From Actinomyces marmotae (GTDB lineage: Bacteria; Actinomycetota; Actinomycetes; Actinomycetales; Actinomycetaceae), in assembly GCF_013177295.1 (NCBI RefSeq), contig NZ_CP053642.1, positions 1,860,001 through 1,924,000 of the forward strand: 64,000 nt of DNA, in the 5' to 3' direction. This document shows, in pieces, positions 24,116-59,031 of the stretch (position 1 is the first letter of the stretch; the number at the start of each line of letters is the position of its first letter). A model generated the notes under the pieces. That model had not been told where the DNA came from and did no database searches. It saw nothing but the letters and a program-made list of their open reading frames with translations. The translations under genes were made by a program, and so were the position numbers.

Positions 24116-24169
24116 ACCGGTCTCGCTCGTGTTTTCGACCGGTCTCGCTCGTGTTTTCGACCGGTCTCG
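24116..24169 (+). repeat. 22-bp tandem array A (3 units)
   Basis: Three ACCGGTCTCG cores at 24116, 24138 and 24160, separated by spacers ending TTTTCG. The array lies directly beyond the stop codon of the DUF318 permease (the stop at 24171 touches the last core) and is followed by a G-rich tract on this strand, C-rich in the permease mRNA. Confidence 0.9.
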
Positions 24170-24170
24170 C

Positions 24171-25154
24171 TCAGAGGGGGAGGAGGAGGGGGCCGATGGC
24201 GAGGGCGCAGAGGATGGCGGCGCCCAGCGCGAGCGGGACGAAGCGCACCACGAAGCGCCGCCCGAAGGCCCCGTACTGCATGACCATGAGTTTGAGGTCC
24301 ACCATGGGGCCGACCACGAGGAACACCAGTTGGGCCGTGGCGGGCACGCCCGTGAAGGAGGCGGCGACGAAGGCGTCGGCCTCCGAGCACAGGCTCAGCA
24401 CGATGGCCAGTCCGGCCATAACGAGCGCGGCCGCCCAGGGCCGCTCCCCCAGAACGGCGAACCACTCCCCCGGCGCCGCGACCCTGACCAGGCCCGCCAC
24501 CATGGCGCCGACGACGAGGAAGCCACCGGCCTCCAGCAGGTCGTGCACGGCCGCCGCCCTAAAAGCGTCCAGCCTGCCGGCGCCCCCATGCCGGTGCTGG
24601 TCGCGAGCCCCATCGTGGGCGCCCCCTGGGCCCAGGGCAAGGCGGGCGTCGTCGTCGAGCAGGATCCAGGCCCAGCCGACGAGCACCGCGGCGAGGAGCG
24701 AGGCGACCAGGCGGGCGATCGGCATGCCGGGCGAGCCCTGGTAGGCCACCGCGGTGGACACGAGCACGATGGGGTTGATCGCCGGGCTGGCCAGTAGGAA
24801 GGCCAGGGCCGCGGCGGGCGGCGCGCCACGCTGGATGAGCGAGCGGGCCACCGGCACGGAGCCGCACTCGCAGCCCGGCAGGAGGACGCCGGCCCCGGCG
24901 GCCACCGGGACCGCGAGCGCGGGGCTGGACGGCGTGGCGCGGCGCAGCAGGCGGACGGGAACGAGCGCGGAGAGCGCGGCGGAGACCAGCACTCCCAGCA
25001 GGAGGAAGGGCAGGGCCTGGACGGTGATGGCCACGACGATGGTCGCCCACGAGCTCGCGGCGCCGTCGAGCCCGGGCGAGATCAGCAACTGGGGGCCCGG
25101 GGAGCGGAGGGAGGGAGCGCTCAGCGCCACGGCCGCCGCGCCCATCGCGCTCAC
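24171..25154 (-). CDS. DUF318-family permease (YcgR/ArsP-like)
   Basis: A 327-residue polytopic membrane protein of the permease family that contains ArsP and YcgR. Core motifs are LLPGCECGSVPVARSL (Cys pair in the pore helix) and, in the second half, LSLCSEADAFVAASF, with GAPPAAALAFLLASPAINP between. GTG start overlaps the stop of the upstream YcgQ-like gene. The pair is normally a two-gene unit of unknown transport role. Its stop abuts a 22-bp repeat array, and the C-terminus PLLLPL is encoded by the tract flanking the array. Confidence 0.85.
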   Translation of the reverse strand: MSAMGAAAVALSAPSLRSPGPQLLISPGLDGAASSWATIVVAITVQALPFLLLGVLVSAALSALVPVRLLRRATPSSPALAVPVAAGAGVLLPGCECGSVPVARSLIQRGAPPAAALAFLLASPAINPIVLVSTAVAYQGSPGMPIARLVASLLAAVLVGWAWILLDDDARLALGPGGAHDGARDQHRHGGAGRLDAFRAAAVHDLLEAGGFLVVGAMVAGLVRVAAPGEWFAVLGERPWAAALVMAGLAIVLSLCSEADAFVAASFTGVPATAQLVFLVVGPMVDLKLMVMQYGAFGRRFVVRFVPLALGAAILCALAIGPLLLPL

Positions 25155-26080
25155 AGGTAGGGCTCCTTGGGCTGGGGGATCTCGCGGAGGCGCTCGACGT
25201 CGATCGCGGGCCCGCCTGCGGCCCCGACAACGGTGCCGACCACCTCGTACCAGCGGTCGGCGCGCAGGCCGCCGACGTCGGCGCCGGGGACCGGTCCGCC
25301 ACCGGCGCGCAGCCCCACCTGGTAGGGGACGGCGTCGGCGGCGCAGCAGATGATCTGGAAGCGGCCCAGGACCCAGCCTCCCTCCCCATCGGGGGCGGCG
25401 AACCCGATCACGGTCACGCGCTCGCCGAGGAGCTCCCCGCGGCGTGCCGAGTCCCAGTACTGGCCGAGCTCGGCCAAGGTGAGCGGGTTGTTCGCGTCGG
25501 GGTCGAGGGCGGGCAGTGCCGTGCCGCGCCGGGCGGCGCGCGCGGCTAGGTCGATGCGCTCACCGGTCCAGGCGTCGACGGCCACCGCGCCACCGGCCTC
25601 GCCGTGGGCGGCTGCCGCTCTTCCCCCGCCCACGGCGGTGGATGCGAGCAGGGCGCTTCCCAGCGGCGCGGGTGAGGCGGCGGCCAGGACGGCGGGCAGG
25701 AGGAGGAGCCAGGAGGCCGCCCGCGGGCGGTGGGCGCCGCAGCCCCGCCGTCGCGAGCCGCGCAGCGCCCAGAGGCTCCAGGCCGCGAGGGCGAGGAGGA
25801 GGGCGGCGGTCAGGCCGAGCGCGGGGGTGAGCAGCGGCTGGACGTAGTGGTGGCTGCGCCCGGTGAGGACGAGCGCTCCCAGGAGCAGGCCGAGGACGAG
25901 GACGATGACGGCGCCGGCGGCCTCTCCCGCGCGGGAGGCGGCTCCCCCTGGCCCGGGACCGCGCGAGGCCGCCTCCCCTCCCCCGGGCGCCGGGGCGCAA
26001 CCGGTCTCGACGCAGTTTTCGACCGGTCTCGGTAAGAGGGGGGTGGGGGCCTGAGTTCGGTCGGCCGCGGGGTCGCTCAC
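25151..26080 (-). CDS. TIGR03943 / DUF1980 (YcgQ-like) membrane protein
   Basis: A 309-residue protein with N-terminal membrane helices (AVIVLVLGLLLGALVL, LGLTAALLLALAAWSLW, LLLLPAVLAAASP) and a C-terminal soluble domain with GFAAPDGEGGWVLGRFQIICCAADAV, which includes the conserved vicinal Cys pair. It overlaps thrB upstream (GTGA) and the permease downstream. The first 35 residues include RPVENCVETG, encoded by repeat array B, so either translation really starts at GTG 26080 and the array has entered the gene, or the start is further in. Function in the family is unknown. Confidence 0.8.
   Translation of the reverse strand: MSDPAADRTQAPTPLLPRPVENCVETGCAPAPGGGEAASRGPGPGGAASRAGEAAGAVIVLVLGLLLGALVLTGRSHHYVQPLLTPALGLTAALLLALAAWSLWALRGSRRRGCGAHRPRAASWLLLLPAVLAAASPAPLGSALLASTAVGGGRAAAAHGEAGGAVAVDAWTGERIDLAARAARRGTALPALDPDANNPLTLAELGQYWDSARRGELLGERVTVIGFAAPDGEGGWVLGRFQIICCAADAVPYQVGLRAGGGPVPGADVGGLRADRWYEVVGTVVGAAGGPAIDVERLREIPQPKEPYL
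26000..26031 (+). repeat. 22-bp tandem array B (2 units)
   Basis: Two ACCGGTCTCG cores at 26000 and 26022. The array lies 46 bases beyond the thrB stop, again with a G-rich tract (26036-26047) between. Here it falls within the first 30 codons of the YcgQ-like gene. Confidence 0.88.
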
Positions 26081-26982
26081 AGGAGGCGGGCGCCCTGGGT
26101 GTCGATGCCGGGGGTCAGCACCTGCCAGCCGTGCTGCTCCAGGGTGAAGCGGGTCTGGTCGGCCAGGCGCGCCAGGACCAGCACGGTGGGACCGGCCCCC
26201 GAGATGACCGCGGGGTAGCCCTGCTCGCGCAGGGAGTCCATGACGGCCATGGAGCCGGGCAGGACGTCGCGGCGGTACTCCTGGTGGAGACGGTCCTCAG
26301 TGCCCGCCATGAGCAGGTCGGGGCGACCGGCGAGGGCCAGCATGAGGACCGCGGCCCGGGAGGTGTTGAACAGCGCGTCGGCTCGGGGCACCGAGTCCGG
26401 CAGGACCCGGCGGGCCTCCTCGGTGGACAGGCGCGTGGCCGGGGGCGGCACGAGGATCGTCACCGGCAGGGAGCCGTCCACGGGCATGGGGGCGGAGCGG
26501 GGGGTCCCGTCCGCCTCGATCCAGGCCACCGTGGCGCCGCCGTAGACGGCGGGGGCGACGTTATCCGGATGCCCTTCGAAGCGCGTGGCCAGGGAGAAGA
26601 CGGCGTCAAGGGGCAGGGCCTGGGGGTCTGAGAGCAGGCCTCGGGCGAGCATGAGGCCGGCGACAGCGGCGCACGCCGAGGAGCCGAGCCCCCCGCCGTG
26701 GGGGATGCGGTTGACGCAGCGCATCTCGAACCCGGCCTGGGGGGCGCCGGCGGCCTCGAGCCCGGCGCGCAGGGCCCGCACGACGAGGTTGTCGTCATCG
26801 GTGGGGACGACGCCCTGGCCCACGCCCTCCACGCGCACGCTCGTGGCGCCGATGATGGGGCGGACGCTGACCTCGTCGTAGTAGCGGAAGGCCATGCCGA
26901 AGGAGTCGAAGCCCGGCCCCATGTTCGCGGTGGTCGCGGGGACGCGGACCCGCGCCTCCTCATGGGCGATGCGCACCGTCAC
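26077..26982 (-). CDS. thrB: Homoserine kinase
   Basis: A 301-residue GHMP kinase phosphorylating L-homoserine for threonine synthesis. The N-terminus VRVPATTANMGPGFDSFGMA and the ATP loop PHGGGLGSSACAAVAG are diagnostic, and AVISGAGPTVLVL is the third GHMP motif. GTG 26982 overlaps the hom stop (GTGA); a much longer frame upstream is a shadow of hom. The stop overlaps the GTG of the YcgQ-like gene. Confidence 0.95.
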   Translation of the reverse strand: MTVRIAHEEARVRVPATTANMGPGFDSFGMAFRYYDEVSVRPIIGATSVRVEGVGQGVVPTDDDNLVVRALRAGLEAAGAPQAGFEMRCVNRIPHGGGLGSSACAAVAGLMLARGLLSDPQALPLDAVFSLATRFEGHPDNVAPAVYGGATVAWIEADGTPRSAPMPVDGSLPVTILVPPPATRLSTEEARRVLPDSVPRADALFNTSRAAVLMLALAGRPDLLMAGTEDRLHQEYRRDVLPGSMAVMDSLREQGYPAVISGAGPTVLVLARLADQTRFTLEQHGWQVLTPGIDTQGARLL

Positions 26983-28301
26983 TCCCCCTCGACGCGCAGG
27001 ACGGAGATGACTTCGCGGACCTGCTCCATGCCGCGCAGCGCATCGACCGCCCGGTCGAGGTGGAGGACGGCGGCCGGGTGGGTGACGATCGTGACGAGGG
27101 GATCGACGCCGTCGGAGACGTAGGAGGCCTGGCGCACAGAGTTGATGGAGATGCCATGGTCGGCCATGGCCTGCATGATCGCGGCGAGCGTTCCGGGGGC
27201 GTCCACGGCGCGCAACTGGATCTGGTAGCGGGTCAGCGCCGACTCGGGGCCGAGGATCGGCAGGTCGGCGTAGGCGAGCTCGCGGGGCGCCTGCCCCCCG
27301 CCGACGCGGTGGAAGGCGGCGGCGACGACGTCGGAGAGCACGGCGGAGGCGGTGGGCGCCCCGCCCGCGCCCTGCCCGTAGAACATGAGGCGGCCGGCGG
27401 ACTCCGCCTCGACGAGCACGGCGTTGAAGGCGCCGTGGACGCCGGCCAGGGGGTGGTCCGCGGGGACGAGGGCGGGGTGGACGCGCACGGAGACACCGTT
27501 GGCGTGATCGTCCTCGCGGCGCTGGGCGACGGCCAGGAGCTTGAGGACGCAGCCCGAGGCATGGGCCTCGCGGATGTCGTCGGCGGTGATGGAGCGGATG
27601 CCGGTGACGTCGACGTCGTTGATGCCCACCCTCGTGTGGAAGGCGAGTGAGGCGATGATGGCGCACTTGGCGGCGGCGTCGAGGCCATCGACATCGGCGG
27701 TGGGGTCCGCCTCGGCGTATCCGAGGGCCTGGGCGGCCGCGAGGGCCTCCTCGAAGCCGAGGCCCTTGGTGCTCATCTCGTCGAGGATGTAGTTGGTGGT
27801 GCCGTTGACGATGCCGAGCACGCTGGTGACGCGGTCCCCGGCCATGGACTCGCGCAGGGCGTAGACCACGGGGATGGCGCCGGCGACGGCCGCCTCGTAG
27901 TAGAAGTCGGTGCCGGCGGCCGCGGCGGCGGCGTAGAGCTCGGGGCCGTGGGCGGCGATGAGGGCCTTGTTGCCGGTGATGACGGAGGCGCCGGCCTTGA
28001 AGGCCGCCAGGATGAGCGTGCGGGCTGGCTCGATGCCGCCGATGAGCTCGATGACGAGGTCGTTGCCGGTGGCCACGGCGGTGGCGTCGTCGGTGAGGAG
28101 CTCGCGGGGGATGTCGGTGTCACGCGGGGCGTTCACGTCGCGCACGGCGACGCCCGTGATCTCCAGACGGGCGCCGGAGCGGGCGGCGAAGTCGTCGGCC
28201 TGCTCGCCGAGCAGGCGGATGACCTGGCTTCCGACGGTGCCGGCGCCGAGGACACCGACGGTGAGGGCGCGCGCCGCTGGGCGCTGGGGATTCTCAGTCA
28301 C
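26979..28301 (-). CDS. hom: Homoserine dehydrogenase
   Basis: A 440-residue NAD(P)-dependent enzyme reducing aspartate semialdehyde to homoserine. Nucleotide loop VGVLGAGTVGSQVI; catalytic core GIVNGTTNYILDEM and ADPTADVDGLDAAAKCAI with the active Lys; a C-terminal ACT domain (IQLRAVDAPGTLAAIMQAM) for threonine feedback. GTG at 28301 gives the standard length. A TATGCT box at about 28437-28442 on the minus strand may be its -10. Translationally coupled to thrB. Confidence 0.95.
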   Translation of the reverse strand: MTENPQRPAARALTVGVLGAGTVGSQVIRLLGEQADDFAARSGARLEITGVAVRDVNAPRDTDIPRELLTDDATAVATGNDLVIELIGGIEPARTLILAAFKAGASVITGNKALIAAHGPELYAAAAAAGTDFYYEAAVAGAIPVVYALRESMAGDRVTSVLGIVNGTTNYILDEMSTKGLGFEEALAAAQALGYAEADPTADVDGLDAAAKCAIIASLAFHTRVGINDVDVTGIRSITADDIREAHASGCVLKLLAVAQRREDDHANGVSVRVHPALVPADHPLAGVHGAFNAVLVEAESAGRLMFYGQGAGGAPTASAVLSDVVAAAFHRVGGGQAPRELAYADLPILGPESALTRYQIQLRAVDAPGTLAAIMQAMADHGISINSVRQASYVSDGVDPLVTIVTHPAAVLHLDRAVDALRGMEQVREVISVLRVEGE

Positions 28302-28536
28302 GTCTGACCACCTGGTTCTCAGGGCGCGCGAGCGCCGGGGCTGGGTGGGCGCGCCGTCGGGGGGTCGCGGAGCACGCGGCGGCGTCCGAGCGGTGGGGCC
28401 GCTGGGCGCCTGGGGCGACGACGAGCCGGTCCGGCCCAGCATAGGGGCACCGGCCTCGCGGCGCTCGTCCCGACCGGCGGGCAGGCGGGGCCGACGGCGG
28501 GCCCAACCCCGCGGCGGTCCCGGCCCCGCGGAGGGC

Positions 28537-30048
28537 TCAGCCCTCCAGGCGCAGGAGGTCCTCGACCGTCTCAGGGCGCAGGACCCAGCCCTGCTCGCCC
28601 CCCGCCACCCAGGCCACGCCCGGGCGGGTGAAGAGGTTGTAGTTCATGGCCATGGAGCGCCCGTAGGCGCCGGTGGCGGGCACGGCGAGCACGTCGCCGA
28701 TGACGAGGTCCGCGGGCAGGTCGACGTCGCGAACGACGATGTCCCCGCTCTCGCAGTGCTTGCCGACCAGGCGGGAGCGCACGAGGCCGACGGCGGGGTC
28801 GGGGCGGCGGCCCGCCAGCAGCGCGGTGTAGTCGGCGCCGTAGAGGGCCGGGCGCAGGTTGTCGCTCATGCCGCCGTCGACGCTCACGTAGAGGCGGCTC
28901 GTGCCCTGCCCCAGCTCGACGCGCTTGAGGCCGGTCACCGTGTAGAGGGTGACCTGGGCGGGGCCAGCGATGGAGCGGCCGGGCTCCACTGACACATGGG
29001 GGACGGCGTCGCCGAGCTCGTCGCACAGTCGGCGCACCACGGCCGCCAGCGCGCGGGCGAGAGCCGCGGGTGAGGGGGCGGGGGCGTCGGCACCGGTGTA
29101 GGCGATGCCGAGGCCGCCGCCCAGGTCGATCTCCTCGCACAGCACGCCAGTGTCGGCCGCGACCTCGTGGCGCAGGCGCAGGACCGCCTCGGCGGCGGCC
29201 TCGAAGCCCGCGGGGTCGGTGATCTGGGAGCCGATGTGGGAGTGCAGGCCGCGCAACTCGAGCTCGGGCGCGGCGATGATCGCGTCGATGGCGGCGCGGG
29301 CGGCGCCGGTGTGGACCGACAGGCCGAACTTCTGGTCCTCGTGGGCCGTGGAGATGAACTCGTGCCCGCCGGCGTGGATGCCAGTGGTCAGGCGCACCAT
29401 GAGCCCGGCGCGCTCATCGGGGCCGTAGATGCCCTCGGCGCGCAGGCGGCGCACGGCCTCAGCCGCGTGGGCGATCTCCTCGGGGGAGTCGACGACGAGG
29501 TGCCCGAGGCGCTCCTGGACGGCCGCGGCGACCTCGGCGGCGGTCTTGCCATTGCCGTGCAGGCCCAGGCGCGAGGGTGGGAAGGACTCAGAGTCGTCCC
29601 CCTCCCCGCTCAGGGCCGCCAGGCCGATGGCCAACTCGACGCGCGAGGCGGTGTCGATGCCGAGGCCGTCGGAGAGCATCCACCGGGCCACGCGAGTGGT
29701 GAGGAAGGCCTTGCCGGCGTAGAAGGCGTCGCCGCCATTCATGCCGTAGCCCGGCCAGAATTCCTCGGCCATGGCGGTGGCCCACACGCGCGCGCGCCCG
29801 CGCATATCGGCCTCATCGAGGACGTAGACGGGGGTGGGGGCGCTGGCGAGGATCTCGGACACTGAGCGCCCGCCGATCACCAACTGGCCGTCGTCGCCGC
29901 GGTGGGCCGTGGTGGGCCACAGGTCGGGGCGCTCGGCGGGCTCGGGGCAGGCCAGCGCGCCCAGGGGCCGCTCGCCGCTGGGGACCAACGCCTCGGCGCC
30001 CCCAGTGCCCCCGGTGCTGCTCCCGCTGCTCATCGGCGTCATGCTCAC
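28537..30048 (-). CDS. lysA: Diaminopimelate decarboxylase
   Basis: A 503-residue PLP enzyme converting meso-diaminopimelate to lysine. The PLP Lys is in FYAGKAFLT; the glycine loop [11 protein letters not shown] and the CESGD active-site motif are present. The GTG start overlaps the argS stop. The order argS-lysA-hom-thrB is classic for actinobacteria. Confidence 0.95.
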
Positions 30049-31721
30049 ATCCTCTCAGGAGCGCTGACCCCCAGCAGTCCCAGCCCATTCGCCAGGACCT
30101 GGCTGACGGCGTCGTTGAGCCACAGCCGGGCGACGTGGCCGGGGGTGATGGCGTCATCCCCCCGCGGGGTGACGCGGGTGGCGCCGTACCAGGTGTGGTA
30201 GGCGGCCGCGAGGGACTCCAGGTAGCGCGCCACGCGGTGCTGCTCGCGCAACTCGGCCGCCTGGGCAACCACCGCCGGGTACTGGGCGAGCGCGCCCAGG
30301 AGCGCGGCGTCGGCGGGATCGTCGAGGGCGGCGGGATCGAAGCCAGCCTCCCGCGTGACCCCGTGCTCGGCGGCGTTGCGAGCCACATTGCGAGTGCGGG
30401 CGTGGGCGTACTGGACGTAGTAGACCGGGTTGTCGTTAGAGGAGGAGGCCAGCAGGTCCAGGTCGATGTCGATCATCGAGTCCATGGACGAGCGAGTCAG
30501 GGCGTAGCGGGCGGCGTCCACGCCGACGGCGTCGACGAGGTCCTCCAGGGTGACGATCGTGCCGGCGCGCTTGGACATGCGCACCGGCTGCCCATCGCTC
30601 ACGAGGTTGACGAGCTGGCCGATGAGGATCTGCATGTTGACCTGGGGAGTGTCCCCGAAGGCCGCGCACATGGCCATCATGCGGCCGATGTAGCCGTGAT
30701 GGTCCGCGCCGAGCAGGTAGACGGCGCAGTCGGCGCCGCGCTCGCGCTTGTCCAGGTAGTAGGCCAGGTCCGCGGCGAAGTAGGCGGCGTTGCCATCGGA
30801 CTTGATCAGGACGCGGTCCTTGTCGTCGCCGAAATCGGTGGTGCGCAGCCAGACGGCGCCGTCGTGGTCGTCGATGACGCCGCGGGAGCGCAGGCGCTCA
30901 ATGGCGCGGTCCACGGCGCCGGAGGCGTGCAGGGAGTCCTCATGGAAGAAGACGTCGAAGTCGGAGCGGAAGGCGTGGAGCTCGGCCTTGATGGAGTCGA
31001 ACATGAGGTCCACCCCGCGGGCGCGGAAGACCTCGGTGGCCTCGGCGTCGGGCAGGCTGGCGGGCTCGGGGCGGCCGGCGGCGACCTCGGAGCGGGTGAC
31101 CTTCTCGGCGATCTCGCCGATGTAGGCGCCGCCATAGCCGTCCTCCGGGGTCTCCTGGCCGCGGGCCGCGGCCAGCAGGGAGCGGGCGAAGCGGTCGATC
31201 TGGGTCCCGTGGTCGTTGAAGTAGTACTCGCGGGTGATGCCGGCCCCGCAGGCGGCGAGGATACGGGCGAGGGAGTCCCCCACGGCGGCCCAGCGAGCGC
31301 CGCCGAGGTGCACCGGGCCGGTGGGGTTGGCGGAGACGTACTCGAGGTTGATGTGCTGGCCGGCCAGCGTCTCGTTGCGGCCGTAGGCCTCGCCCGCGGT
31401 GACGATCACGCGGGCGAGCTCGCCGGCGGAGGCGGCGTCGAGGCGGATGTTGAGGAAGCCGGGGCCGGCGACCTCGGCGGAGGCGACGCCGTCGAGGGCC
31501 TCGATGCGGGGGGCGAGGAGCTCGGCGAGGACGCGGGGGCTGGTCCCGGCCCGCTTGGCCAGCTGCATGGCGACATTGGTGGCCCAGTCGCCGTGGTCGC
31601 GGTTGCGCGGGCGCTCGACCTTGGGGAGCCCGATGTCCTCCGGGGCGAGGGCCAGGGAGCCGTCGTCGACGGCGGAGGCGAGGACTGTGCGGATTGCTGC
31701 GGCGAGCTCTTCTGGGGTCAC
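30045..31721 (-). CDS. argS: Arginyl-tRNA synthetase
   Basis: A 558-residue class I synthetase. The HIGH-like motif is [12 protein letters not shown] and the KMSKS equivalent is VRMSKRAG; the C-terminal DALR anticodon-binding domain ends [18 protein letters not shown] 31721 ([10 protein letters not shown]) is chosen; an upstream extension is low-complexity. It heads the amino-acid cluster. A tRNA-Arg gene lies divergently 190 bases upstream. Confidence 0.96.
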
Positions 31722-31908
31722 GGCCGCAAGAGTACCGGACCCGGGCCGGGGCGCCCCGGGCGGGACCGGGACCCGAGCGGGGGCGGGATCCGGGCGGGGG
31801 CGGGACCCGAGCTCGTGGGCGCCCGGCTCCCGACCGGCGGGGCGGGAGGGCCGCGAACCGCCCGCCGGTTTCCCCCCTGGGCCGGGCACTGGTACAGTCG
31901 CGCAGCGG

Positions 31909-31984
31909 GCCCCGGTAGCTCAGTGGATAGAGCGTCTGCCTCCGGAGCAGAAGGTCGCAGGTTCGAATCCTGTCCGGGGCACCA
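31909..31984 (+). tRNA. tRNA-Arg (CCG)
   Basis: 76-base cloverleaf with acceptor GCCCCGG/CCGGGGC, D-arm AGCTCAGTGGATAGAGC, anticodon loop CTCCGGA (anticodon CCG, reading CGG), T-arm GCAGGTTCGAATCCTGT and an encoded CCA. It is followed at once by a terminator hairpin whose 3' half is duplicated 1.65 kb downstream at the far end of a small island. Confidence 0.96.
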
Positions 31985-31985
31985 C

Positions 31986-32020
31986 CGAGCCCCCGCCCGG
32001 CGCGACGTCGGCGGGGGCTC
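31986..32020 (+). terminator. Terminator of tRNA-Arg
   Basis: GAGCCCCCGCC and GGCGGGGGCTC form an 11-bp perfect stem with a 12-13 base loop directly after the tRNA. Confidence 0.8.
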
Positions 32021-33482: not shown

Positions 33483-33503
33483 GACGGGTAACCTCACTCG
33501 GGC

Positions 33504-33683: not shown

Positions 33684-34094
33684 TCGCCCCGCTCAGCGCG
33701 GCCGGGCATGGCGACGGCCGACGGAAGAGTCGAGGGCCCGTGGGCCCGGGCTCTCACCCGGGCCCACGGGCCCTTCGCTCACGAGGCCGCTCGACTCCCC
33801 CGGTTCCCATGACAAGGGAGGAGCGGTCCTCCTTCACCGAAGCGAACGGAACGGGCTCCCTAAGACCCGCACCGATCTCGATGCGAAGCGGTCACCGGGT
33901 TCCCCAACCCTCGCGCCTCGCACCGTTCGGCGGCAGTCACTATGTAACCCGCCGGACCTGGGAGCACACCCCCTTTTGAACTGGGAAGCACCTGGGAAAT
34001 GACGCCGAGTGGTGACGAACTCGCCCCGTGGCGCCCGAGCGCGGGACCACAGGCGCTCTCACGCGGGGCCGAGCGCCCCGCCAGTGGAGAGTGA
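33684..34094. other. Gene-less stretch right of island
   Basis: No frame here looks like a protein. It holds the 17-bp-stem hairpin at 33734-33773 and ends in repeat array C. Confidence 0.5.
33734..33773. terminator. Long perfect hairpin
   Basis: GGGCCCGTGGGCCCGGG and CCCGGGCCCACGGGCCC form a 17-bp perfect stem around the loop CTCTCA. On the + strand it is followed by TTCGCTC. No gene ends nearby, so it may be the terminator of something lost, or shield the island. Confidence 0.55.
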
Positions 34095-34148
34095 ACCGGT
34101 CTCGCTCTTATTTTCGACCGGTCTCGGCGCTGTTTTCGACCGGTCTCG
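34095..34148 (+). repeat. 22-bp tandem array C (3 units)
   Basis: Cores at 34095, 34117 and 34139. This array overlaps the 3' end of the glycerophosphodiesterase gene, supplying its last codons and its TAA stop. Confidence 0.9.
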
Positions 34149-51367: not shown

Positions 51368-51436
51368 GATGGGCGTTCCTTCCTGGTTAAGTGGTTCCTG
51401 CGCGGGCAGGATGGGGGATGACGCGCGCGGCCTGGA

Positions 51437-51958
51437 TCAGGCCGCGGCCTCCTGCTTGTCGCGCAGGGCGTCGACGGTACGCACGGCCTTGGAGGCCGGC
51501 GCGGCGAAGAGGTAAGCGGCCTTGGACAGGGACGCCTTCATAGCGCCCGCGGCCTTGGCGAGCAGAACCTCGCGGGATTCGAGAGATGCGAGCTTGTCGA
51601 CGCCGTCGGCGGACAGCACGGAGCCATCCATGACACCGCCCTTGATGACGAGCTCCTTGTTGTCCTTGGCGAAGTCACGCAGGGCCTTCGCGGCCTCCAC
51701 CGGCTCACCGGTGACGAAGGTCAGGGCCGTGGGGCCCTTGAGGTCCTCCGCGAATGCCTCGAAGCCGACCTGGCGGGCGGCGATCGCGGCAAGCGTGTTC
51801 TTCACCACGGTGTACTCGGCGTTACCGGCGAGCGAGCGGCGCAGCGTCTTCAGCTGGGCGACGCTCATCCCGCGGTACTCAGTCAGCAGCACGGCGCCGG
51901 AGGCGCGGAACTTGTCCGCGATCTCGGCAACAGCCGCTTCCTTGTCAGGCCGTGCCAT
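51437..51958 (-). CDS. rplJ: 50S ribosomal protein L10
   Basis: A 173-residue stalk base protein: MARPDKEAAVAEIADKFR, LTEYRGMSVAQLKTLRR and TVVKNTLAAIAA are typical. The C-terminal helices bind L7/L12 dimers. The leader upstream carries the autoregulatory L10 RNA structure. Confidence 0.97.
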   Translation of the reverse strand: MARPDKEAAVAEIADKFRASGAVLLTEYRGMSVAQLKTLRRSLAGNAEYTVVKNTLAAIAARQVGFEAFAEDLKGPTALTFVTGEPVEAAKALRDFAKDNKELVIKGGVMDGSVLSADGVDKLASLESREVLLAKAAGAMKASLSKAAYLFAAPASKAVRTVDALRDKQEAAA

Positions 51959-52140
51959 GGGCCCTCCTTCCGTGGTCTGCCGCAGCGCCCTTCACGGAAG
52001 AAGCCCCGCGCCGGTGGGCACGGGGCTCGCAGCCCAGCGATGCTGGAGCGGTCTCGTCTCACCTGCGCCGGCCCCGCCCGTGGCGGACTTGGTCCCGCTC
52101 GCGCGGGAGACCTGCGGTCTTTGGCACGTCACACTCTGCC
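51959..52140 (-). ncRNA. L10 ribosomal-protein leader
   Basis: The minus strand before rplJ contains the conserved L10-leader words CCAAAGACCGCAGGT, GGACCAAGTCCGCCACGGG and GCAGGTGAGACGAGACCGC, plus a stem GCCCCG/CGGGGC near the ribosome site. L10 or L10-L12 binds this RNA to repress the operon. The outer limit is approximate; the remaining bases up to rplA hold its terminator. Confidence 0.8.
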
Positions 52141-52247
52141 CGCTGGCCGCGCCCCCGCGCAAGCCAGGAGGGGGCCAGCGCGCGGTGTGATCGCTCACTG
52201 CCCCGGTTCACCCGCCACCGCCCCGGAGGCGCCCGCGCGGGAATGAC

Positions 52248-52288
52248 GACGGCGCCGCCCGTCCCAGCGTGGGGCGGGCGGCGCCGTC
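52248..52288 (-). terminator. Hairpin after rplA
   Basis: GACGGCGCCGCCCG (52248-52261) pairs with CGGGCGGCGCCGTC (52275-52288), separating rplKA from the L10 leader. Confidence 0.7.
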
Positions 52289-52306
52289 GGACGCGATCGC
52301 GGGCGG

Positions 52307-52996
52307 TCAGGCCTTCGTGACATCCATCGGGATGCCGGGGCCCATCGTCGTGGCCATGGTGGCCTTGAGGATGTAGCGGCCCTTCGACGTCGACGGCTTG
52401 AGGCGCAGGACCTCCTCAAGGGCGGCCTTGAAGTTGTCCTCGAGCTGGGCCTCGGTGAACGAGGACTTGCCGATGATGAAGTTGAGGTTCGCGGCGCGGT
52501 CCACACGGAACTCGATGCGGCCGCCCTTGATGTCGGTGACGGCCTTGGTCACGTCCATCGTCACGGTGCCCGTCTTGGGGTTGGGCATGAGGCCGCGCGG
52601 GCCCAGCACCCGGCCCAGGCGGCCGACCTTGCCCATGAGGTCCGGGGTGGCGACGGCGGCGTCGAAGTCCGTCCAGCCCTTGGCGACCTTCTCGATGAGC
52701 TCGTCGCCGCCGACCTCGTCGGCGCCCGCGGCGAGGGCCTGCTCGGCCCGCTCGCCCTGGGCGAAGACGATGACGCGGGCGGTCTTACCCGTACCGTGCG
52801 GCAGGGACACGGTGCCACGCACCATCTGGTCGGCCTTGCGGGGGTCCACGCCCAGGCGGAGGACGACGTCCACGGTGGAGTCGAACTTCGTCACGGACGT
52901 GGCCTTGGCCAGCTTCACGGCCTCGGCCGGGGTGTAGAGGATCCCGGACTGGATCTTCTCAGCGGCGGCGCGGTAGGCCTTGCTGCGCTTGGTCAT
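52307..52996 (-). CDS. rplA: 50S ribosomal protein L1
   Basis: A 229-residue L1 stalk protein; [21 protein letters not shown] and [21 protein letters not shown] are the rRNA-binding signatures. Start MTKRSKAYR follows AAGGAGAAGCAG; the longer frame is not supported. It also commonly regulates its own operon. Confidence 0.97.
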
Positions 52997-53073
52997 CTGC
53001 TTCTCCTTGGCAGTCGTGGTGAACGGGCCGCGCATGGCCCTTCCACGGGGTCTTGATTAGGGGTGCCGGGGCC

Positions 53074-53505
53074 TCAGGCCTCGACGGTGATGCCCATCGA
53101 GCGGGCGGTGCCGGCGATGATCTTGGAGGCCGCCTCGACGTCGTTGGCGTTGAGGTCGGCCATCTTCGCCTCGGCGATCTCGCGCACCTGGGCAGCGGTC
53201 ATCGAGCCGACCTTCGCGGAGTGCGGCGTCGAGGAGCCCTTGGCCACGCCAGCGGCCTTCTTGATGAGCTCGGCGGCCGGAGGGGTCTTGAGGACGAAGG
53301 TGAAGGAGCGGTCCTCGTAGACGGTGATCTCAACGGGGATGACGTTGCCGCGCTGCGACTCCGTGGCGGCGTTGTAGGCCTTGCAGAACTCCATGATGTT
53401 GACGCCGTGCTGGCCGAGCGCGGGGCCGATCGGCGGCGCGGGGTTCGCGGCGCCGGCCTGGATCTGGAGCTTGATGAGCCCAGAGACCTTCTTCTTGGGT
53501 GCCAT
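53074..53505 (-). CDS. rplK: 50S ribosomal protein L11
   Basis: A 143-residue protein: [37 protein letters not shown] (thiostrepton-region domain) and the C-terminal 23S-binding [11 protein letters not shown]. Cotranscribed with rplA. Confidence 0.97.
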
Positions 53506-53611
53506 GTGTATGGGTCTTTCTTGTCCGGATGCCGCGCGCCTGCCGCGCGGCGGTGCGCAGGAGCGCGCACGAGGGCCCATCCTAGCCCCCGCGCGGTGCC
53601 CCGATAGCGCC

Positions 53612-53658
53612 CGGTGCCCGGTATCACAAGCGCTCGCGCTGTGATACCGGGCACCGGC
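53612..53658. terminator. 18-bp perfect hairpin between nusG and rplK
   Basis: CCGGTGCCCGGTATCACA pairs perfectly with TGTGATACCGGGCACCGG; the loop AAGCGCTCGCGC can add four pairs with a bulge. It stands between nusG and rplK, which would normally be read together, so it can separate or attenuate rplK transcription. No T-run. Confidence 0.6.
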
Positions 53659-53684
53659 GCGGCTCGCCGCGGGGGCGGCTCGCC

Positions 53685-54473
53685 TCAGATCTTGGACACC
53701 TGTGTGAAGGAGAGCTCGGCCGGGGTGTCGCGACCGAACAGGGAGATGAGCACCTGGAGCTTCTGGGTGTCCGGGTGGATCTCGGAGATCGTGGCCGGCA
53801 GCGACTCGAAGGGGCCGTCAGTGACGATGACCGACTCGCCCACGGAGAAGGCGACCTCGTAGACCTGGCCTCCGGCGGCGACCTGCGTGGCGGCCCCCTC
53901 CTCGGGGCTCGCGTTCGCGCTGGCGGCCTGCTTGGCGGCGACCTCCTCCGGGGTGGGGCCGAGTTGGGAGACGGCCTCCTCGAAGGTCAGCGGCACCGGG
54001 TTGTAGCGGTCCCCCACGAAGCCGGTAACGGCCGGGGTGTCCTTGATGGTGCGCCACACGCGGTCAGAGGTCTCCGGGTCATCCAGGTCCATCCGCACGA
54101 ACACGTAGCCGGGGATGCGGACCCGCGACACCTCCTTCTTCTTGTTGGAGGCCTTGATCTCGATGACCGTCTCCATGGGGACGACGGCGTCGAAGACGTA
54201 GTCCTCGATCTCGAAGTTCTCGGCGCGGGCCTTGATGTCCGCGGCCACGCGGCGCTCGTAGCCGGAGTAGGTGTGCAGCACGTACCACTCGCCGGGCAGG
54301 GAGGACATCTCCTTGCGGAAGTCCTCCAGCGGGTCGATGGCGTCGGCGGCCTCGGCGGCCTCGGGCGCGGCCTGGGCGGTGGCGCCCTCAGCGGCCTCCT
54401 GGGCGGCGTCGGCGGCGCTGGCGGCCCCACCGCTCTCCTCGACAGCGGTTTCCTCGAGCGTCTCTTCGGACAC
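53685..54473 (-). CDS. nusG: Transcription termination/antitermination protein NusG
   Basis: A 262-residue NusG. An acidic, Ala-rich N-terminal extension of about 60 residues precedes the NGN domain ([32 protein letters not shown]) and the C-terminal KOW ([18 protein letters not shown]). It couples RNA polymerase to ribosomes or Rho. GTG 54473 is used; the acidic extension is usual in actinobacteria. Confidence 0.96.
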
Positions 54474-54534
54474 GGTGTACCTGCTTTCCACTGGCTTCTT
54501 CAGGCTGACGGGTGGGCGCTGGGCTCGGCGGGAC

Positions 54535-54765
54535 TCAGCCGAGGCCCCACATGACCAGGCGGTCGAAGATGGTGTCGAGAATGCCGGTGAAGGCCATGAT
54601 CGCGACGATGAAGACCATGACGACGACGAAGTAGGTCCACAACTCGTTCTTCGTGGGCCAGATGACCTTGCGCATCTCGTCGATGACCTGGCGGATGAAG
54701 CGCATGACGCGCTTGATGGGGTTGCCACTGCGCGTGGATGCGTCCTTGGCGGCGCTCTCGCTCAT
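54535..54765 (-). CDS. secE: Preprotein translocase subunit SecE
   Basis: A 76-residue single-span Sec[26 protein letters not shown], the amphipathic helix, followed by [22 protein letters not shown] 54765 after GAGGATC is chosen; a GTG two codons earlier is possible. Directly followed by nusG, preceded by tRNA-Trp. Confidence 0.95.
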
Positions 54766-54865
54766 TGTCACGATCCTCGGGTGCTCGACGGTCCGAATCC
54801 TTGCCATCCCTGACGGGACGAGAAGACGAACCGACGGGATCTCCCGACAGATCCGCCGTTCTCAG

Positions 54866-54938
54866 CAGGGCAGGCGGGACTCGAACCCACAACCGCCGGT
54901 TTTGGAGACCGGTGCGCTACCAATTGCGCCACTGCCCT
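54866..54938 (-). tRNA. tRNA-Trp (CCA)
   Basis: 73-base cloverleaf: acceptor AGGGCAG/CTGCCCT, anticodon loop CTCCAAA (anticodon CCA), T-arm GTGGGTTCGAGTCCCGC. CCA end not encoded. tRNA-Trp before secE-nusG is conserved. Confidence 0.96.
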
Positions 54939-55191
54939 TCAGCGGTGACCAATCCTGCCACAGGTTCCCCCGGGAGTGGAAACAGCGACGGGGTGGGCTG
55001 CACCACTGCCAGACCCCAGAGTCTCGGGCGCCAGCCCCAGAGCCTCGGGCAGAGGCAGGCATCCCAGGGGAATCCGCTATCGTGGTCCCCGTTGTCTGAT
55101 ATCCGATGAGAGGTGCCGACGACAGCTCGTGACCGCGCGCACCGCGCCCGAACCGCCCCGGCCCTGCTCGACCTCACGAGAGGAGGCCACT

Positions 55192-56262
55192 ATGACCAAT
55201 GCTCGGAACACCGCCGCAGCCCTCCCGACCCCCGGGGCGCCCAGCCCCACCGGCACCGTCGCCGCCCATCAGCCAGCATCGGGCGCCGGCGCGCCCGGCG
55301 AGTCGCGCCCCGCCCCGAGCGCGATCCTCGGCGCCTACGCCTCGCTGCCCGAGTCCCAGGAGGACCAGGAGGAGTACTACCGGCTCCTGGCGCAGATTCC
55401 GGGCGCTCGCGGGCTCGAGATCCCCTTCCGGGACGACCTCGGCGGGGCGGCCGGCCTGCCCTGGCTGGCCTCCCAGCTCGCACCCCACTGGGACCGCAAC
55501 ATCATCACCGCGATCCCCGGGACCATGGTGCGCGTGTGGGCGACCGGCGCCTTCGGCCTGGCCTCCACCGATCGCCAGGGCCGCGCCGACGCCCTCTCCT
55601 TCACCCGCTCGGTGCGCGACGGCGTCGAGGCGCTGCGGGAGGCGGCCGGCCGCGACGTCGTGGCCGCCGTCGAGATCCACTCCGCGCCCTCGGGCGAGCC
55701 CGGGGTGGCGCACAGCGCCGAGGCCTTCGGGGAGTCGCTGTCGCAGATCGTCGACTACGACTGGGGCGGCGCGCTCCTCCTGGTGGAGCACTGCGACGCC
55801 TTCGTGGCGCCCGACCTGGGGGAGAAGCGGCTGCTCGGGATCGACGAGGAGTTGGAGGTCCTGCGCGTCCTCAACCATCCCCGCGCGCGCATGTCCCTCA
55901 ACTGGGGCCGCTCAGCCCTCGAGGCCCGCGACGCCGCCACCGCCTTGGAGCATGTGCGCCTCGCCCGCGCCGCCGGAGTGCTGGAGGGGGTCATGTTCTC
56001 CGGGGCCGGCCCCGCGGATACCCGCTACGCGAAGGCGTGGATGGATGGGCACCTGCCCCTCGACGTCGACGAGCCGGGATCGGTGATGGGCGCTGAGGAT
56101 GTGCGCGCCTGCTCCCTGGCCGCGCTGGAGCCCATCGAGGGCCCCGAGGGGGCTATCGCCCCGGCCTCCTACCTCGGGGCCAAGTGCCAGGTCCCGGCCG
56201 AGGCCACCCCCGAGCAGCGCCTGTCCTTCCTCACCCACATCCTCGACGCCACCCGCGTCTAA
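55192..56262 (+). CDS. DUF4862 family protein
   Basis: A 356-residue protein matching the DUF4862 pattern: ILGAYASLPESQEDQEEYY, IPGARGLEIPFRDDL, VAAVEIHSAP and the late GAKCQVPAEATPEQRLSFL. Alternating strands and helices suggest a TIM barrel of the sugar-isomerase/epimerase kind, with acidic residues at LEIPF, VEIHSA and LVEHCDA as candidate metal ligands. ATG follows AGAGGAGG. Function unknown. Repeat array D starts 15 bases after its stop. Confidence 0.75.
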   Translation: MTNARNTAAALPTPGAPSPTGTVAAHQPASGAGAPGESRPAPSAILGAYASLPESQEDQEEYYRLLAQIPGARGLEIPFRDDLGGAAGLPWLASQLAPHWDRNIITAIPGTMVRVWATGAFGLASTDRQGRADALSFTRSVRDGVEALREAAGRDVVAAVEIHSAPSGEPGVAHSAEAFGESLSQIVDYDWGGALLLVEHCDAFVAPDLGEKRLLGIDEELEVLRVLNHPRARMSLNWGRSALEARDAATALEHVRLARAAGVLEGVMFSGAGPADTRYAKAWMDGHLPLDVDEPGSVMGAEDVRACSLAALEPIEGPEGAIAPASYLGAKCQVPAEATPEQRLSFLTHILDATRV

Positions 56263-56276
56263 CCGCCCCTCATCAC

Positions 56277-56330
56277 CGAGACCGGTCGAAATCAAGAGCG
56301 AGACCGGTCGAAATCAAGAGCGAGACCGGT
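56277..56330 (-). repeat. 22-bp tandem array D (3 units, inverted)
   Basis: Cores at 56281, 56303 and 56325 in the reverse orientation to the other arrays, matching the + orientation of the gene it follows. Spacer variant ends TGATTTC on the minus strand. Confidence 0.9.
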
Positions 56331-56519
56331 CCACAGCACGCAGGGCGGGGTCATCGGGAAGCGCAATGCCCTCCCGCGCCACGCGCCCGGCTCCCTGCGG
56401 GCCCGCAACCCTGGGGCCCTCGCCTCCACCGAGGCCGCGCCCATCGACCGCGCCGCGCCACCATCCACCGCGCCGACGCCGGGGCCAGCATCGCCGAGGC
56501 CGGGCCCTCCTGCGCGCCT

Positions 56520-56891
56520 TTTGACCGGCGGCGCGCGAGGCTGGGAGCCGATGAGCGCGGGGCGATCGCCGTCGACGACCAGCAGCGATCATCCGATCCC
56601 GCGACGTGGCCGGCCGGCGACGCCACTGCCAAGCGCGACGCCGTCGACGAGCGGGCCGGCGGAGTGCGCCCGGCGCCCTCAACATCCCGGAGGGCACCCC
56701 GCGCGATCACCTCGGAGATCCGCCCGACCGACCGCTGGCAGCGGCTCGCGAGGCGGGCCTGCGCGGCCACGTCGCGACCCGTATCCTCCTCCAGGAGGGG
56801 CGCGAGGCGCGCGATCTCGACGGCGGCCACCGCACCTGGTCCGCGGCTGGCGGGGCCGGCGCTCGGGACGACGCCGCAGCGCCCCCGATGA
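56520..56891 (+). pseudogene. Remnant of CoA-disulfide reductase/rhodanese gene
   Basis: One frame reads RLGADERGAIAVDDQQRSSD then PATWPAGDATAKRDAV, the FAD-binding C-terminal motif (TSDPxIWAxGDA) of pyridine-nucleotide-disulfide oxidoreductases. A second frame from about 56660 reads APGALNIPEGTPRDHLGDPP, then GLRGHVATRILLQEG and ARDLDGGHRTW, the tail of a rhodanese domain with its catalytic Cys loop deleted. This is the CoADR-RHD fusion, frame-shifted and missing most of its length. Sequence from 56340 to 56520 shows nothing more I can assign. Confidence 0.65.
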
Positions 56892-56904
56892 AGGAGGAAC
56901 GACC

Positions 56905-57174
56905 ATGGGCATCGCGCTCAACCCCACGGACCTGCATCCCACCATGGCCCGCCTCAAGCGGGCGCGCGGGCAACTCGACGCCGTCATCCGCATGATGGAG
57001 GAGGGCCGTGACTGCGAGGAGGTCGTCGTGCAGGTCGCGGCCGTGAGCAAGGCGGTGGACCGCGCGGGGCTCGCCATCATCGCCTCCGGAATGCGCGCCA
57101 GCCTCACGAAGGACCCATCCGGCCAGATCCTGGAAGCAACCCGCCTGGAGAAGCTCTTCATGTCCCTGGCATGA
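56905..57174 (+). CDS. CsoR/FrmR-family regulator with incomplete sensor site
   Basis: An 89-residue all-helical repressor: MARLKRARGQLDAVIRMMEEGRDCEEVVVQ is the family core. Cys37 (in GRDC) is the first sensor Cys, but the second-site His/Cys in helix 2 are gone: the segment reads AGLAIIASGMRASL where relatives have a Cys (LRxC). Metal (Cu/Ni) or persulfide (CstR-like) sensing would need both. ATG follows AAGGAGGAACGACC. It lies just past the wrecked CoADR-rhodanese gene, its probable former target, so sensor and enzyme have decayed together. Confidence 0.8.
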   Translation: MGIALNPTDLHPTMARLKRARGQLDAVIRMMEEGRDCEEVVVQVAAVSKAVDRAGLAIIASGMRASLTKDPSGQILEATRLEKLFMSLA

Positions 57175-57227
57175 GGGCGCAGGGCGGGGCGGCGGCATCG
57201 CGAGCACGAATCTCGCCGTGTTGATGG

Positions 57228-57281
57228 ACCGGTCTCGCTCCTGATTTCGACCGGTCTCGCTCCTGATTTCGACCGGTCTCG
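57228..57281 (+). repeat. 22-bp tandem array E (3 units)
   Basis: Cores at 57228, 57250 and 57272 with TGATTTC spacers. It lies 54 bases past the CsoR stop and before the aminotransferase, but points opposite to array D, so it is the one array not oriented with the gene it follows. Confidence 0.9.
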
Positions 57282-57328
57282 GCTAGAGGGCGGGAGGGGC
57301 GTGACAGGCGGATAACCCGCGTGGGACC

Positions 57329-58561
57329 ATGGGCCCTGTGAGCACAGTGAGCACCTCCCCCGCACGGCGCGTCTCCGCGCGCCTGTCCGCCATCGCCCCC
57401 TCCGCCACCCTCGTCGTCGACGCCAAGGCCAAGGCCCTCAAGGCCGCTGGTCGGCCGGTCATCGGCTTCGGCGCCGGCGAGCCCGACTTCGCCACCCCTG
57501 ACTACATCGTCGAGGCCGCGATCGCCGCCGCTAAGGATCCCGCCAACCACAAGTACTCCCCCGCCAAGGGCCTGCCCGCGCTGCGCGAGGCCATCGCCGC
57601 CAAGACCCTGCGCGACTCCGGATACGAGGTCTCCCCCGACGACATCCTCGTCACCAATGGCGGCAAGCAGGCCGTCTTCCAGGCCTTCGCCTCCATCCTC
57701 GACCCGGGCGACGAGGCCCTCCTGCCCGCCCCCTACTGGACCACCTACCCCGAGGTCATCGCCCTGGCCGGCGGTATCACGGTGGAGGTCTTCGCCGGCG
57801 CGGACCAGGAGTACAAGGTCACCGTCGAGCAGCTCGAGGCCGCCCGCACCGAGCGAACGAAACTCCTGCTCCTGTGCTCGCCGTCGAACCCCACCGGCTC
57901 GGTGTACACGCCCGCTGAACTCACCGCCATCGGGCAGTGGGCCCTTGAGCACGGCATCTGGGTCATCACCGATGAGATCTACGAGCACCTCCTCTACGAC
58001 GGCGCCGAGCCCGCCCACATCGTGGCGCTCGTCCCCGAGCTGGCGGACACCACGATCGTCCTCAACGGCGTGGCCAAGACCTACGCCATGACGGGCTGGC
58101 GCGTGGGCTGGATGATCGGCCCGAGCGACGTCATCAAGGCCGCCACGAACTTCCAGTCGCACCTGTCCTCCAACGTCGCCAACGTGTCCCAGCGGGCAGC
58201 GCTCGCGGCGGTGGCCGGGGACCTGACCGCCGTGGCGCGGATGCGGGAAGCCTTCGACCGCCGTCGGAAGGTCATGGTGGAGATGCTCTCGGCCATCGAC
58301 GGGCTCGCCGTCCCGACGCCGCGGGGCGCCTTTTACACCTACTCGAGCATCGAGGCGCTGATCGGGAAGTCCCTGCGTGGGACGGTCATCGACTCCTCCG
58401 CCACGCTGGCCTCGCTCGTCCTCGAGCACGCCGAGGTCGCGGTGGTGCCCGGTGAGGCCTTCGGCCCGTCCGGATTCCTGCGCCTGTCCTACGCAACGAG
58501 CGACGACGCGATCACCGAGGGCGTGGGGCGCCTCCAGGCGCTCCTGGCCGAGGTCGCCTGA
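57329..58561 (+). CDS. Class I aminotransferase (aspartate aminotransferase type)
   Basis: A 410-residue PLP enzyme of fold type [19 protein letters not shown] is the AspAT N-terminal motif; [27 protein letters not shown] and the PLP Lys in [14 protein letters not shown] are all present. Likely transfers amino groups between aspartate/glutamate and 2-oxo acids. A GTG at 57338 is an alternative start, as neither has a strong ribosome site. Confidence 0.9.
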
Positions 58562-58955
58562 GCGCCCGCCCGCCGGGCCTCCTTCCCGGGAGCGGTTCCG
58601 CCGCTCAGTACCGCGAGCAGGGGGCCCGGCCGATGGTGGGCCCGCGGCCTGTCGCCAGGTTCCATCAGGTCATCCCCGACCGCTCCGAAGGACGGGCGGA
58701 GACGCCGTGGGCCGCTGTCAGCCCGTGCTCGAGCCCATGGGACCGGACCCCGGCCCCGCCGTGTAAGTACTCGCCGCAGCGCGGCTGACACCCAGCGGAG
58801 TCCGTGGGGATCGCGCGGGGGAGCAAGGTCCAGTGGCGGAGGATGCGCGGTCAGGGACGTTGACGCGCTCCCCGAGGAGGATGCCGCCGACGGCGCCCGC
58901 AGCAGCCCGCGCGAGCACGAGCGGGAATCAGCGCGCTCTCCTGCGCCCAATGCGA
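58562..58955. other. Gene-less stretch before array F
   Basis: No frame in these 394 bases resembles a protein and no hairpin or operator is evident. A former gene is possible but not recognisable. Confidence 0.4.
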
Positions 58956-59031
58956 ACCGGTCTCGACGCTGTTTTCGACCGGTCTCGACGCCGTTTTCGA
59001 CCGGTCTCGACGCTGTTTTCGACCGGTCTCG
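58956..59031 (+). repeat. 22-bp tandem array F (4 units)
   Basis: Cores at 58956, 58978, 59000 and 59022. The array ends 26 bases before the stop codon of the APH-fold gene, with the G-rich tract between. It is the longest array in the window. Confidence 0.92.

Follow-up and report, generated by a model that had tools for sequence, protein, structure and literature searches.

Phased 22-bp repeat arrays as the probable ends of a compact one-gene mobile element in Actinomyces

Results

The six arrays of the window and their genome-wide family

The window analyzed here, a 64-kb stretch (positions 1,860,001-1,924,000) of the single 2,419,502-bp contig of Actinomyces marmotae, contains six tandem arrays of a 22-bp unit. 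They belong to a family of about 120 arrays in this genome, in which the unit reads, in its sense orientation, CGAGACCGGT followed by 12 bp that are variable and fall into a few classes. Elsewhere in the same genome, and in related species, such arrays lie in inverted orientation on the two sides of a nuclease-like gene, and we consider it likely that they are the phased ends of a compact one-gene mobile element, with the dispersed arrays as its gene-less derivatives. The features of the window are the following:

24116..24169, minus strand: three-unit array (unit CGAGACCGGTCG... on the minus strand), 1 bp beyond the stop of an ArsP-like permease gene (24171-25154, minus strand)
24170..24195, minus strand: C-rich tract (polypurine on the plus strand), outside the array at 24116..24169 and overlapping the 3' end of the permease gene
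26000..26031, minus strand: two-unit array, 45 nt beyond the stop of a GHMP-kinase gene (26077-26982, minus strand)
34095..34148, minus strand: three-unit array with the stop (34108-34110) of a glycerophosphodiester phosphodiesterase (GDPD) gene inside it and a TCCACT inner flank 6 nt inside the array
56277..56330, plus strand: three-unit array, 14 nt beyond the stop of a DUF4862 gene (55192-56262, plus strand)
57228..57281, minus strand: three-unit array, antisense to both plus-strand neighbors and 65 nt ahead of an aminotransferase start
58956..59031, minus strand: four-unit array, 25 nt beyond the stop of an APH-like gene (59057-60562, minus strand)

The original prediction, made from the window, had placed these arrays correctly, and all 12 of their unit-to-unit steps are 22 bp. 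Its remark on gene ends also holds within the window, where five of the six arrays overlap the stop codon of a gene in the array's own sense or begin within 45 nt beyond it, the exception being that at 57228-57281. Matches to GACCGGTCTCG with at most one mismatch number 19 in the window, of which 18 fall within arrays and one is a stray at 52046; 100 dinucleotide shuffles of the window gave a mean of 4.9 and a maximum of 11. The expected enrichment of the unit elsewhere in the genome was borne out: over the whole genome, unit pairs number 84 in one orientation and 111 in the other, and a reversed-pattern control has none. Mapping placed 84/84 and 108/111 of these pairs, which form 115 arrays distributed over 73 places. 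The stretches around these places, 561,862 bp with the window included, contain 127 unit groups, 121 of them with at least two units. Of 205 steps, 203 measure exactly 22 bp, the remaining two being 19 and 18.

The array at 24116..24169 is kept at the equivalent place in Actinomyces denticolens, which also has the one at 26000..26031. An open reading frame next to the latter crosses the array as called, and its start was probably called wrongly. The GDPD frame ends within the array at 34095-34148, so the repeat supplies the codons for its last residues. The arrays at 56277..56330 and 57228-57281 face each other across a gene for a metal-sensitive repressor (56905-57174, plus strand).

No Rfam family matched over the arrays at gathering score in the window and 18 of 70 stretches, where only tRNAs and one Actinomyces-1 RNA were found, and the idea that the arrays are an Rfam RNA was dropped. 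This Actinomyces-1 small RNA (RF02928, 105.9 bits; window 33829-33937, minus strand) lies about 158 nt from the array at 34095 and has no match in the 18 other array stretches, so it is probably unrelated to the arrays. A plasmid or phage origin was likewise set aside, as neither the one array nor the protein that were searched gave a match. Searches of the open PMC literature turned up no title or abstract concerning the array family.

A nuclease-like gene lies between inverted arrays

In A. marmotae, a gene of 364 amino acids lies between inverted arrays at 567112-568372, and its relative in genome G013, 47% identical, is also found between inverted arrays, there of the G013 dialect. These two cases were the initial lead, which was then tested in other genomes of a panel of 49 Actinomyces genomes (identified by G-numbers). 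Full-length orthologues are present in 20 of the 49 (at least 225 bits; at least 453 bits by profile). The next-best profile scores are those of a version in G058 that is split in two (304 and 246 bits for its halves), followed by other genera, at 241 bits or less. The gene of G017 had first been reported as broken, but the TGA in question is absent from the profile match and the idea was abandoned.

By inspection, inverted tandem arrays stand on both sides of the orthologue in 19 of the 20 genomes (A. marmotae, G041, G004, G059, G013, G046, G044, G042, G015, G017, G005, G050, G052, G055, G051, G021, G008, G016, and G020) and on one side in G054; the units upstream of the gene are degenerate in G016 and G020. 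The period of the gene-flanking arrays is 22-23 bp (23 in G050, G052, and G055), and their cores are species-specific. The A. marmotae core at up to three mismatches, used for all cross-genome pair counts, gave just one to eight pairs in G008, G021, G051, G020, and G016, because the cores differ there; all five have the gene flanked on both sides.

An automatic test looked for a 9-mer that recurs at 18-26 bp on one side of a gene and whose reverse complement lies on the other. It was passed by 16 of 19 orthologues (G041 left out) and, among control genes of 0.6-1.6 kb taken from G013 and G017, by 10 of 328 (p 3e-18 for this contrast); in the array-rich stretches of A. marmotae, 16 of 205 genes of that size pass, and both control sets may still contain the nuclease gene itself. 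When tandem repeats were demanded on both sides, these figures became 11/19, 2/328, and 4/205. The gene also tracks the abundance of arrays across the genus: an orthologue is present in 13 of the 14 genomes with at least 17 unit pairs, a cut picked after the counts were known, versus 7 of the other 35 (p 3e-6), and in 14/17 versus 6/32 when the cut is set at 10 pairs (p 3e-5).

The element occupies different sites, and the same sites occur full, solo, or empty

Together with its arrays, the nuclease-like gene is found at no fewer than six places among the genomes, four of which show other states elsewhere. After "gene A" (264 amino acids, no Pfam match), the full element is present in G020, G016, G042, G046, G044, and G051, a bare array pair in A. 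marmotae and G041, and nothing in G013. After a carbohydrate-phosphorylase (glgP-like) gene, the site is full in G015 and G054, holds a solo array in G017, and is empty in G042. The genes for ribosomal proteins S17 and L14 are normally adjacent; the site between them is full in A. marmotae, G041, G004, and G059 and empty in G008, and the element separates the two genes in the A. marmotae species group (L132:3136-5412). Beside a moaB-like gene, the element is present in G050, G052, G005, and G055, and the site is empty in A. marmotae and G004. Empty sites were rechecked over 365-450 nt, and Pfam backs the neighbor names S17, L14, phosphorylase, MoCF_biosynth, and EF-Tu. One and the same place can thus have arrays that enclose the gene in some species and gene-less arrays in others, the gene lying between inverted arrays and shared sites being found in full, solo, and empty states. 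The bare states may be either losses or separate insertions.

The protein has predicted AbiEi-like and nuclease-like features

An alignment of 18 rows shows three invariant residues, D271, E282, and K288. Among 18 members, Pfam domains were detected as DUF559 in six (best 3.4e-5), MTES_1575 in three, AbiEi_4 in two, and AbiEi_1 in one; the A. marmotae protein itself has none of them at 0.1. A PADLOC AbiEi match reaches 5.6e-6. The AlphaFold2 model (mean predicted local distance difference test score 82.9) gave Foldseek probabilities of 0.94 to Rv2827c, which we take to be AbiEi-like, 0.91 to the catalytic domain of I-Bth0305I (E 0.45), and 0.89 to AbaSI. Based on these matches, we call the predicted protein a combination of an AbiEi-like N-terminal part and a Vsr/DUF559-like PD-(D/E)XK C-terminal domain.

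At least one relative of the protein is present in 43 of the 49 Actinomyces genomes. Distant paralogues tend toward 19-23-bp repeats nearby; in 11 genomes, 9 of 28 such loci pass the weaker form of the automatic test and four the strict one. A second paralogue in A. marmotae has a 20-bp tandem repeat family close by, which matches at three places in the genome (up to three mismatches):

71424-71489: matches to the 20-bp repeat family
537939-537984: matches to the 20-bp repeat family
1815988-1816647: matches to the 20-bp repeat family

Anatomy and pairing of the arrays

At its outer end, an array is preceded by a C-rich tract at -14 to -5 and often by a T at -4 and a purine at -2. At the inner end, TCCAC(A/T) stands exactly 6 nt inside the last core in 20 of 121 A. 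marmotae arrays, where 0.5 would be expected (13-nt window). TCCACA is also found upstream of the nuclease-like gene in most of the flanks inspected, and because of this its interpretation as a DnaA box was given up. An array pair does lie in the dnaA-dnaN intergenic region, the expected origin site (L107:1750-1872).

Many of the A. marmotae arrays form head-to-head pairs. With at least two units per side, 18 pairs have exactly 6 bp between their cores and seven have 57-59 bp, and further pairs span 0.2-1.9 kb, some with genes inside. The arms of the 6-bp pairs are mostly identical, with exceptions at 2289296, 676051, and 186196. At one locus (L121, genome 339759), comparison with G041 shows that both arms of a 70-bp palindrome were altered together, either by selection for pairing or by correction of the palindrome through template switching. 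The opposite of the usual pairing is seen in G013 (joined coordinates 298677/298709 and 303077/303109), where the outer ends of arrays are fused without a spacer. RNA hairpins between adjacent units were considered and rejected, as self-complementarity is lost in the G013 dialect (by eye).

Three related cassettes of about 1.9 kb, flanked by inverted arrays with related unit order, are present at L122 (356578-358571), L146 (991430-993365), and L162 (2028897-2030826). They contain a DUF6318 lipoprotein-like gene and a second secreted-looking protein, and a decayed copy lies at 1489034. At L138 (genome 670344-671356), the 0.9 kb between inverted arrays resembles, by eye, a decayed ISL3-type transposase.

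Conserved cores amid turnover of spacers and copy number

In a partial comparison, the A. marmotae genome is 87-95% identical to those of Actinomyces gaoshouyii and A. denticolens in most long alignments. Array places are kept in both relatives, and whole units are gained or lost. Over 45 and 22 arrays, with BLAST alignments taken as given, divergence amounts to 18/1003 and 22/570 sites in the cores (1.8-3.9%), 1215/12396 and 711/6285 in the flanks (10-11%), and 93/648 and 153/416 in the spacers (14-37%). When arrays of the relatives were aligned into the A. marmotae stretches, 54 of 55 in this biased sample matched an A. marmotae array, and the 55th is a coding coincidence. Of three loci where the alignment to the G041 contig is broken, one is a compact pair there (208610-209740), one shows a single core (30246), and one is a plain GC hairpin (2339999).

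Across the genus, the A. marmotae core gave 17-689 unit pairs in 14 genomes, the remaining 35 having 0-12; outside it, five of 164 family genomes had a single match each (at most two mismatches). A de novo search for 22-bp periodicity returned distinct cores in G013 and G017, and found no recurrent core of this period in 120-140 kb of G007, G024, and G018. Core dialects are species-specific, and conservation of the core goes together with turnover of the spacers and of copy number. The near-constant period across changing cores, together with the conserved core and fast spacers, would suit binding by one rapidly co-evolving protein. Conservation of array positions between dialect groups was also considered and not upheld, with 2/5 vs 10/38 in G013, 0/3 vs 5/32 in G017, and, pooled over G046, G042, and G013, 3/6 vs 2/19 (p 0.07).

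Gene context and the question of termination

Gene contexts were called with a codon-usage gene caller made for this analysis, and 4 of 121 A. marmotae arrays lie inside called genes. When array-bearing gaps are set against all those of 60 bp or more in these stretches, the numbers are 34 vs 60 for convergent, 41 vs 164 for codirectional, and 9 vs 69 for divergent neighbors, figures that are informative as ratios only, as the stretches were selected for arrays. Clusters are concentrated toward the origin, with 61 of 88 in the origin-proximal half (Kolmogorov-Smirnov p 0.001). A replichore bias was considered and discarded (hand tally of roughly 29 C/41 T vs 19 C/26 T).

The enrichment in convergent gaps speaks for a reading in which the arrays are terminators or insulators, the C-rich tract loading Rho and a bound array acting as a roadblock, bidirectional when paired. 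In convergent gaps, 44 of 49 arrays begin at most 52 nt from the facing stop, and hairpins of at least 12 bp outside the arrays occur in 6/31 gaps with arrays vs 13/28 without (p 0.049); the same contrast is 3/26 vs 10/22 for gaps up to 250 bp (p 0.011) and 3/23 vs 6/18 for gaps up to 160 bp (p 0.15). At 2339999, an array pair in A. marmotae corresponds to a long plain GC hairpin in the A. gaoshouyii/G041 contig. Codirectional arrays in G013 and G017 (400 kb each) are, moreover, mostly in sense with their genes (9 sense, 1 antisense, 3 both).

Orientation in A. marmotae points the other way. That arrays follow the direction of the adjacent gene is true of five of the six in the window, but fails genome-wide, where of the codirectional gaps 12 have arrays in sense with the genes, 14 opposed to them, and 15 in both orientations. 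The polypurine tract described beside the arrays is indeed present family-wide, but it is not specific to gene ends and occurs in every gene context: the pyrimidine fraction of the C-rich tract is 0.75 beside sense, 0.74 beside antisense, and 0.74 beside divergent arrays, compared with 0.49-0.53 past array-free stops. Since the tract is equally strong beside antisense arrays, it belongs to the element and not to gene ends. It is weaker in G013 and G017 (0.70 and 0.66). By eye, a GC hairpin already stands between stop and array at the S17, glgP, and some other gene ends, no U-run of the intrinsic-terminator design was found after the arrays, and a full element sits between the S17 and L14 genes. 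With mixed orientation and a context-independent tract, the evidence does not support the proposed Rho-type termination as what the arrays are primarily for; a side role in gene-end function is possible.

Discussion

A proposed mobile element with gene-less derivatives

The full element has the order C-rich tract, tandem 22-bp units, six nucleotides of any sequence, a TCCACAGG-like motif, the gene, inverted tandem units, and a G-rich tract. Each gene-bearing Actinomyces lineage holds one orthologue, nearly always between inverted arrays, to which many lineages add gene-less arrays, single or head-to-head, that are intergenic and lie chiefly by gene 3' ends. In the scheme that we favor, the protein would bind the units cooperatively on one face of the DNA, two helical turns apart, and cut beside them; repair from other arrays would then homogenize the units and seed gene-less copies. 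Such a homing-like or repair-templated route would also account for concerted evolution. Of the roles first suggested for the arrays, a small mobile repeat and a phased protein-binding array both fit the evidence, binding itself being presumed.

Comparison with known systems

Excerpts of PMC3116915 and PMC8266576 describe REPIN-RAYT systems (REPtrons) as having one enzyme gene per repeat type, located by its cognate repeats, and repeat diversity that co-evolves with it. As portrayed there, they share with the Actinomyces arrays dispersed extragenic repeats, inverted pairs, and a single linked enzyme gene; in Actinomyces, gene linkage is seen in 20 genomes and dispersed repeats in 14 of 49. Unlike REPs, however, the Actinomyces units are tandem 22-mers without a GTAG-tagged palindrome of 20-50 nt, and the gene itself is at different sites in different species. 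The Y1/HUH transposase (PF01797) was absent from all 49 genomes, although the same search was positive in 5 of 14 control genomes, and RAYT-driven REPs were rejected on this basis. The Actinomyces system thus appears to resemble REPIN-RAYT pairs while failing two of their defining features, the Y1 transposase and the GTAG hairpin. By analogy, the dispersed arrays may best be read as maintained in the way that REPINs are by a RAYT, but through an unrelated nuclease-like protein.

The predicted Vsr-like PD-(D/E)XK catalytic domain would be shared with homing endonucleases of the I-Bth0305I type, which are mobile single genes borne by introns or genes; the Actinomyces element is instead intergenic, is bounded on its two sides by inverted phased arrays, and comes with a population of gene-less arrays. 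The ends of Tn7/Mu-type elements carry several transposase sites of about 22 bp and are comparable in having such sites inverted at two ends, but the outer tips of the Actinomyces arrays read CGAGA... rather than TG or TGT. A Mu/Tn7-type transposase was rejected as the mover, as the TnsB/MuA-type PF09299 was detected only in the array-poor G010 among the 49 genomes; none of the 14 controls was positive, so the sensitivity of this search rests on that match. The protein resembles AbiE type IV toxin-antitoxin systems, in which an AbiEi antitoxin is paired with a neighboring AbiEii nucleotidyltransferase toxin, in its weak AbiEi similarity, but not in its nuclease-like C terminus or in the repeats that flank one gene on both sides. 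Lastly, Rpn proteins (PF04754) are PD-(D/E)XK nucleases too, proposed in excerpts of PMC5350276 to help gene acquisition, with RpnA cleavage having little sequence specificity; repeat arrays, part of the Actinomyces system, go unmentioned for Rpn in those excerpts, and no Rpn match was obtained in our Pfam scans of the proteins.

Weighing the alternatives

Several observations weigh against the favored scheme. All Foldseek E-values exceed 0.01 (no match below 1e-3), and a PDB sequence search yielded no convincing relative. G022 has 17 unit pairs, yet no high-scoring orthologue, and the arrays beside the gene differ in dialect or period from the dispersed ones in G050 and, to some extent, in G005. 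The dialect-specific dispersed copies of G016, G020, G008, and G021, all of them gene-bearing, fall outside the unit-pair counts, and because species share ancestry, the orthologue and array counts are not independent, with p values that ignore kinship. At least one core is retained in the G041 contig at 12 of 12 A. marmotae clusters that it spans; array positions are stable among close species, so movement would be old or rare. Inspection by eye of the sequence around pairs with a 6-bp center revealed no target-site duplication, there being no recent insertion among them.

Further genes between inverted arrays in A. marmotae (the three DUF6318-type cassettes, an NADH:flavin-oxidoreductase, the metal-sensitive repressor, and others) also count against the scheme and favor a passenger role, in which an unrelated transposase or ordinary recombination spreads the arrays and genes are captured by chance. 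We find this unlikely, given that arrays of differing dialects enclose one orthologous gene in 19 of 20 genomes, compared with 10 of 328 control genes, and that RAYT and PF09299, the two transposase families covered by the scan, score 0/49 and 1/49.

Alternatively, the gene could be an autoregulated AbiEi-type defense or toxin-antitoxin gene, with the flanking arrays as its operators and the dispersed arrays as a regulon or spread operators. The AbiEi-like similarity and the repeats on the promoter side of the gene agree with this, but there are arrays on its downstream side too, few of the dispersed arrays occupy divergent gaps, which are the ones with promoters, and the full, solo, and empty states at shared sites point to mobility, making an operator role quite improbable. 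Termination or insulation as the function of the arrays, for which the evidence is given above, is very doubtful.

Implications

Returning to the favored mobile element, a wider proposition can be put forward, tentatively and with somewhat more doubt than confidence: that the product of a single predicted AbiEi/Vsr-like nuclease gene binds to its own phased 20-23-bp arrays and cuts them, changes existing arrays to whichever unit type prevails, and gives rise to gene-less copies, so that homing or repair, and not a transposase, drives a REPIN-RAYT-like population. This would be a new class of self-propagating bacterial DNA, with several distant paralogues each having their own 19-23-bp repeat family.

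A hitherto unexplained Actinomyces repeat family gains a candidate cognate protein, and the spread and persistence of intergenic repeat populations, an old question, can be put to a direct test using one gene and a 22-bp unit. Should the protein indeed move the arrays, a DUF559/AbiEi-type nuclease would be a mobility enzyme, and its paralogues, widespread in the genus, would need to be re-read. The species-specific cores, with a period that hardly varies, form a natural series in which protein-DNA co-evolution could be studied.

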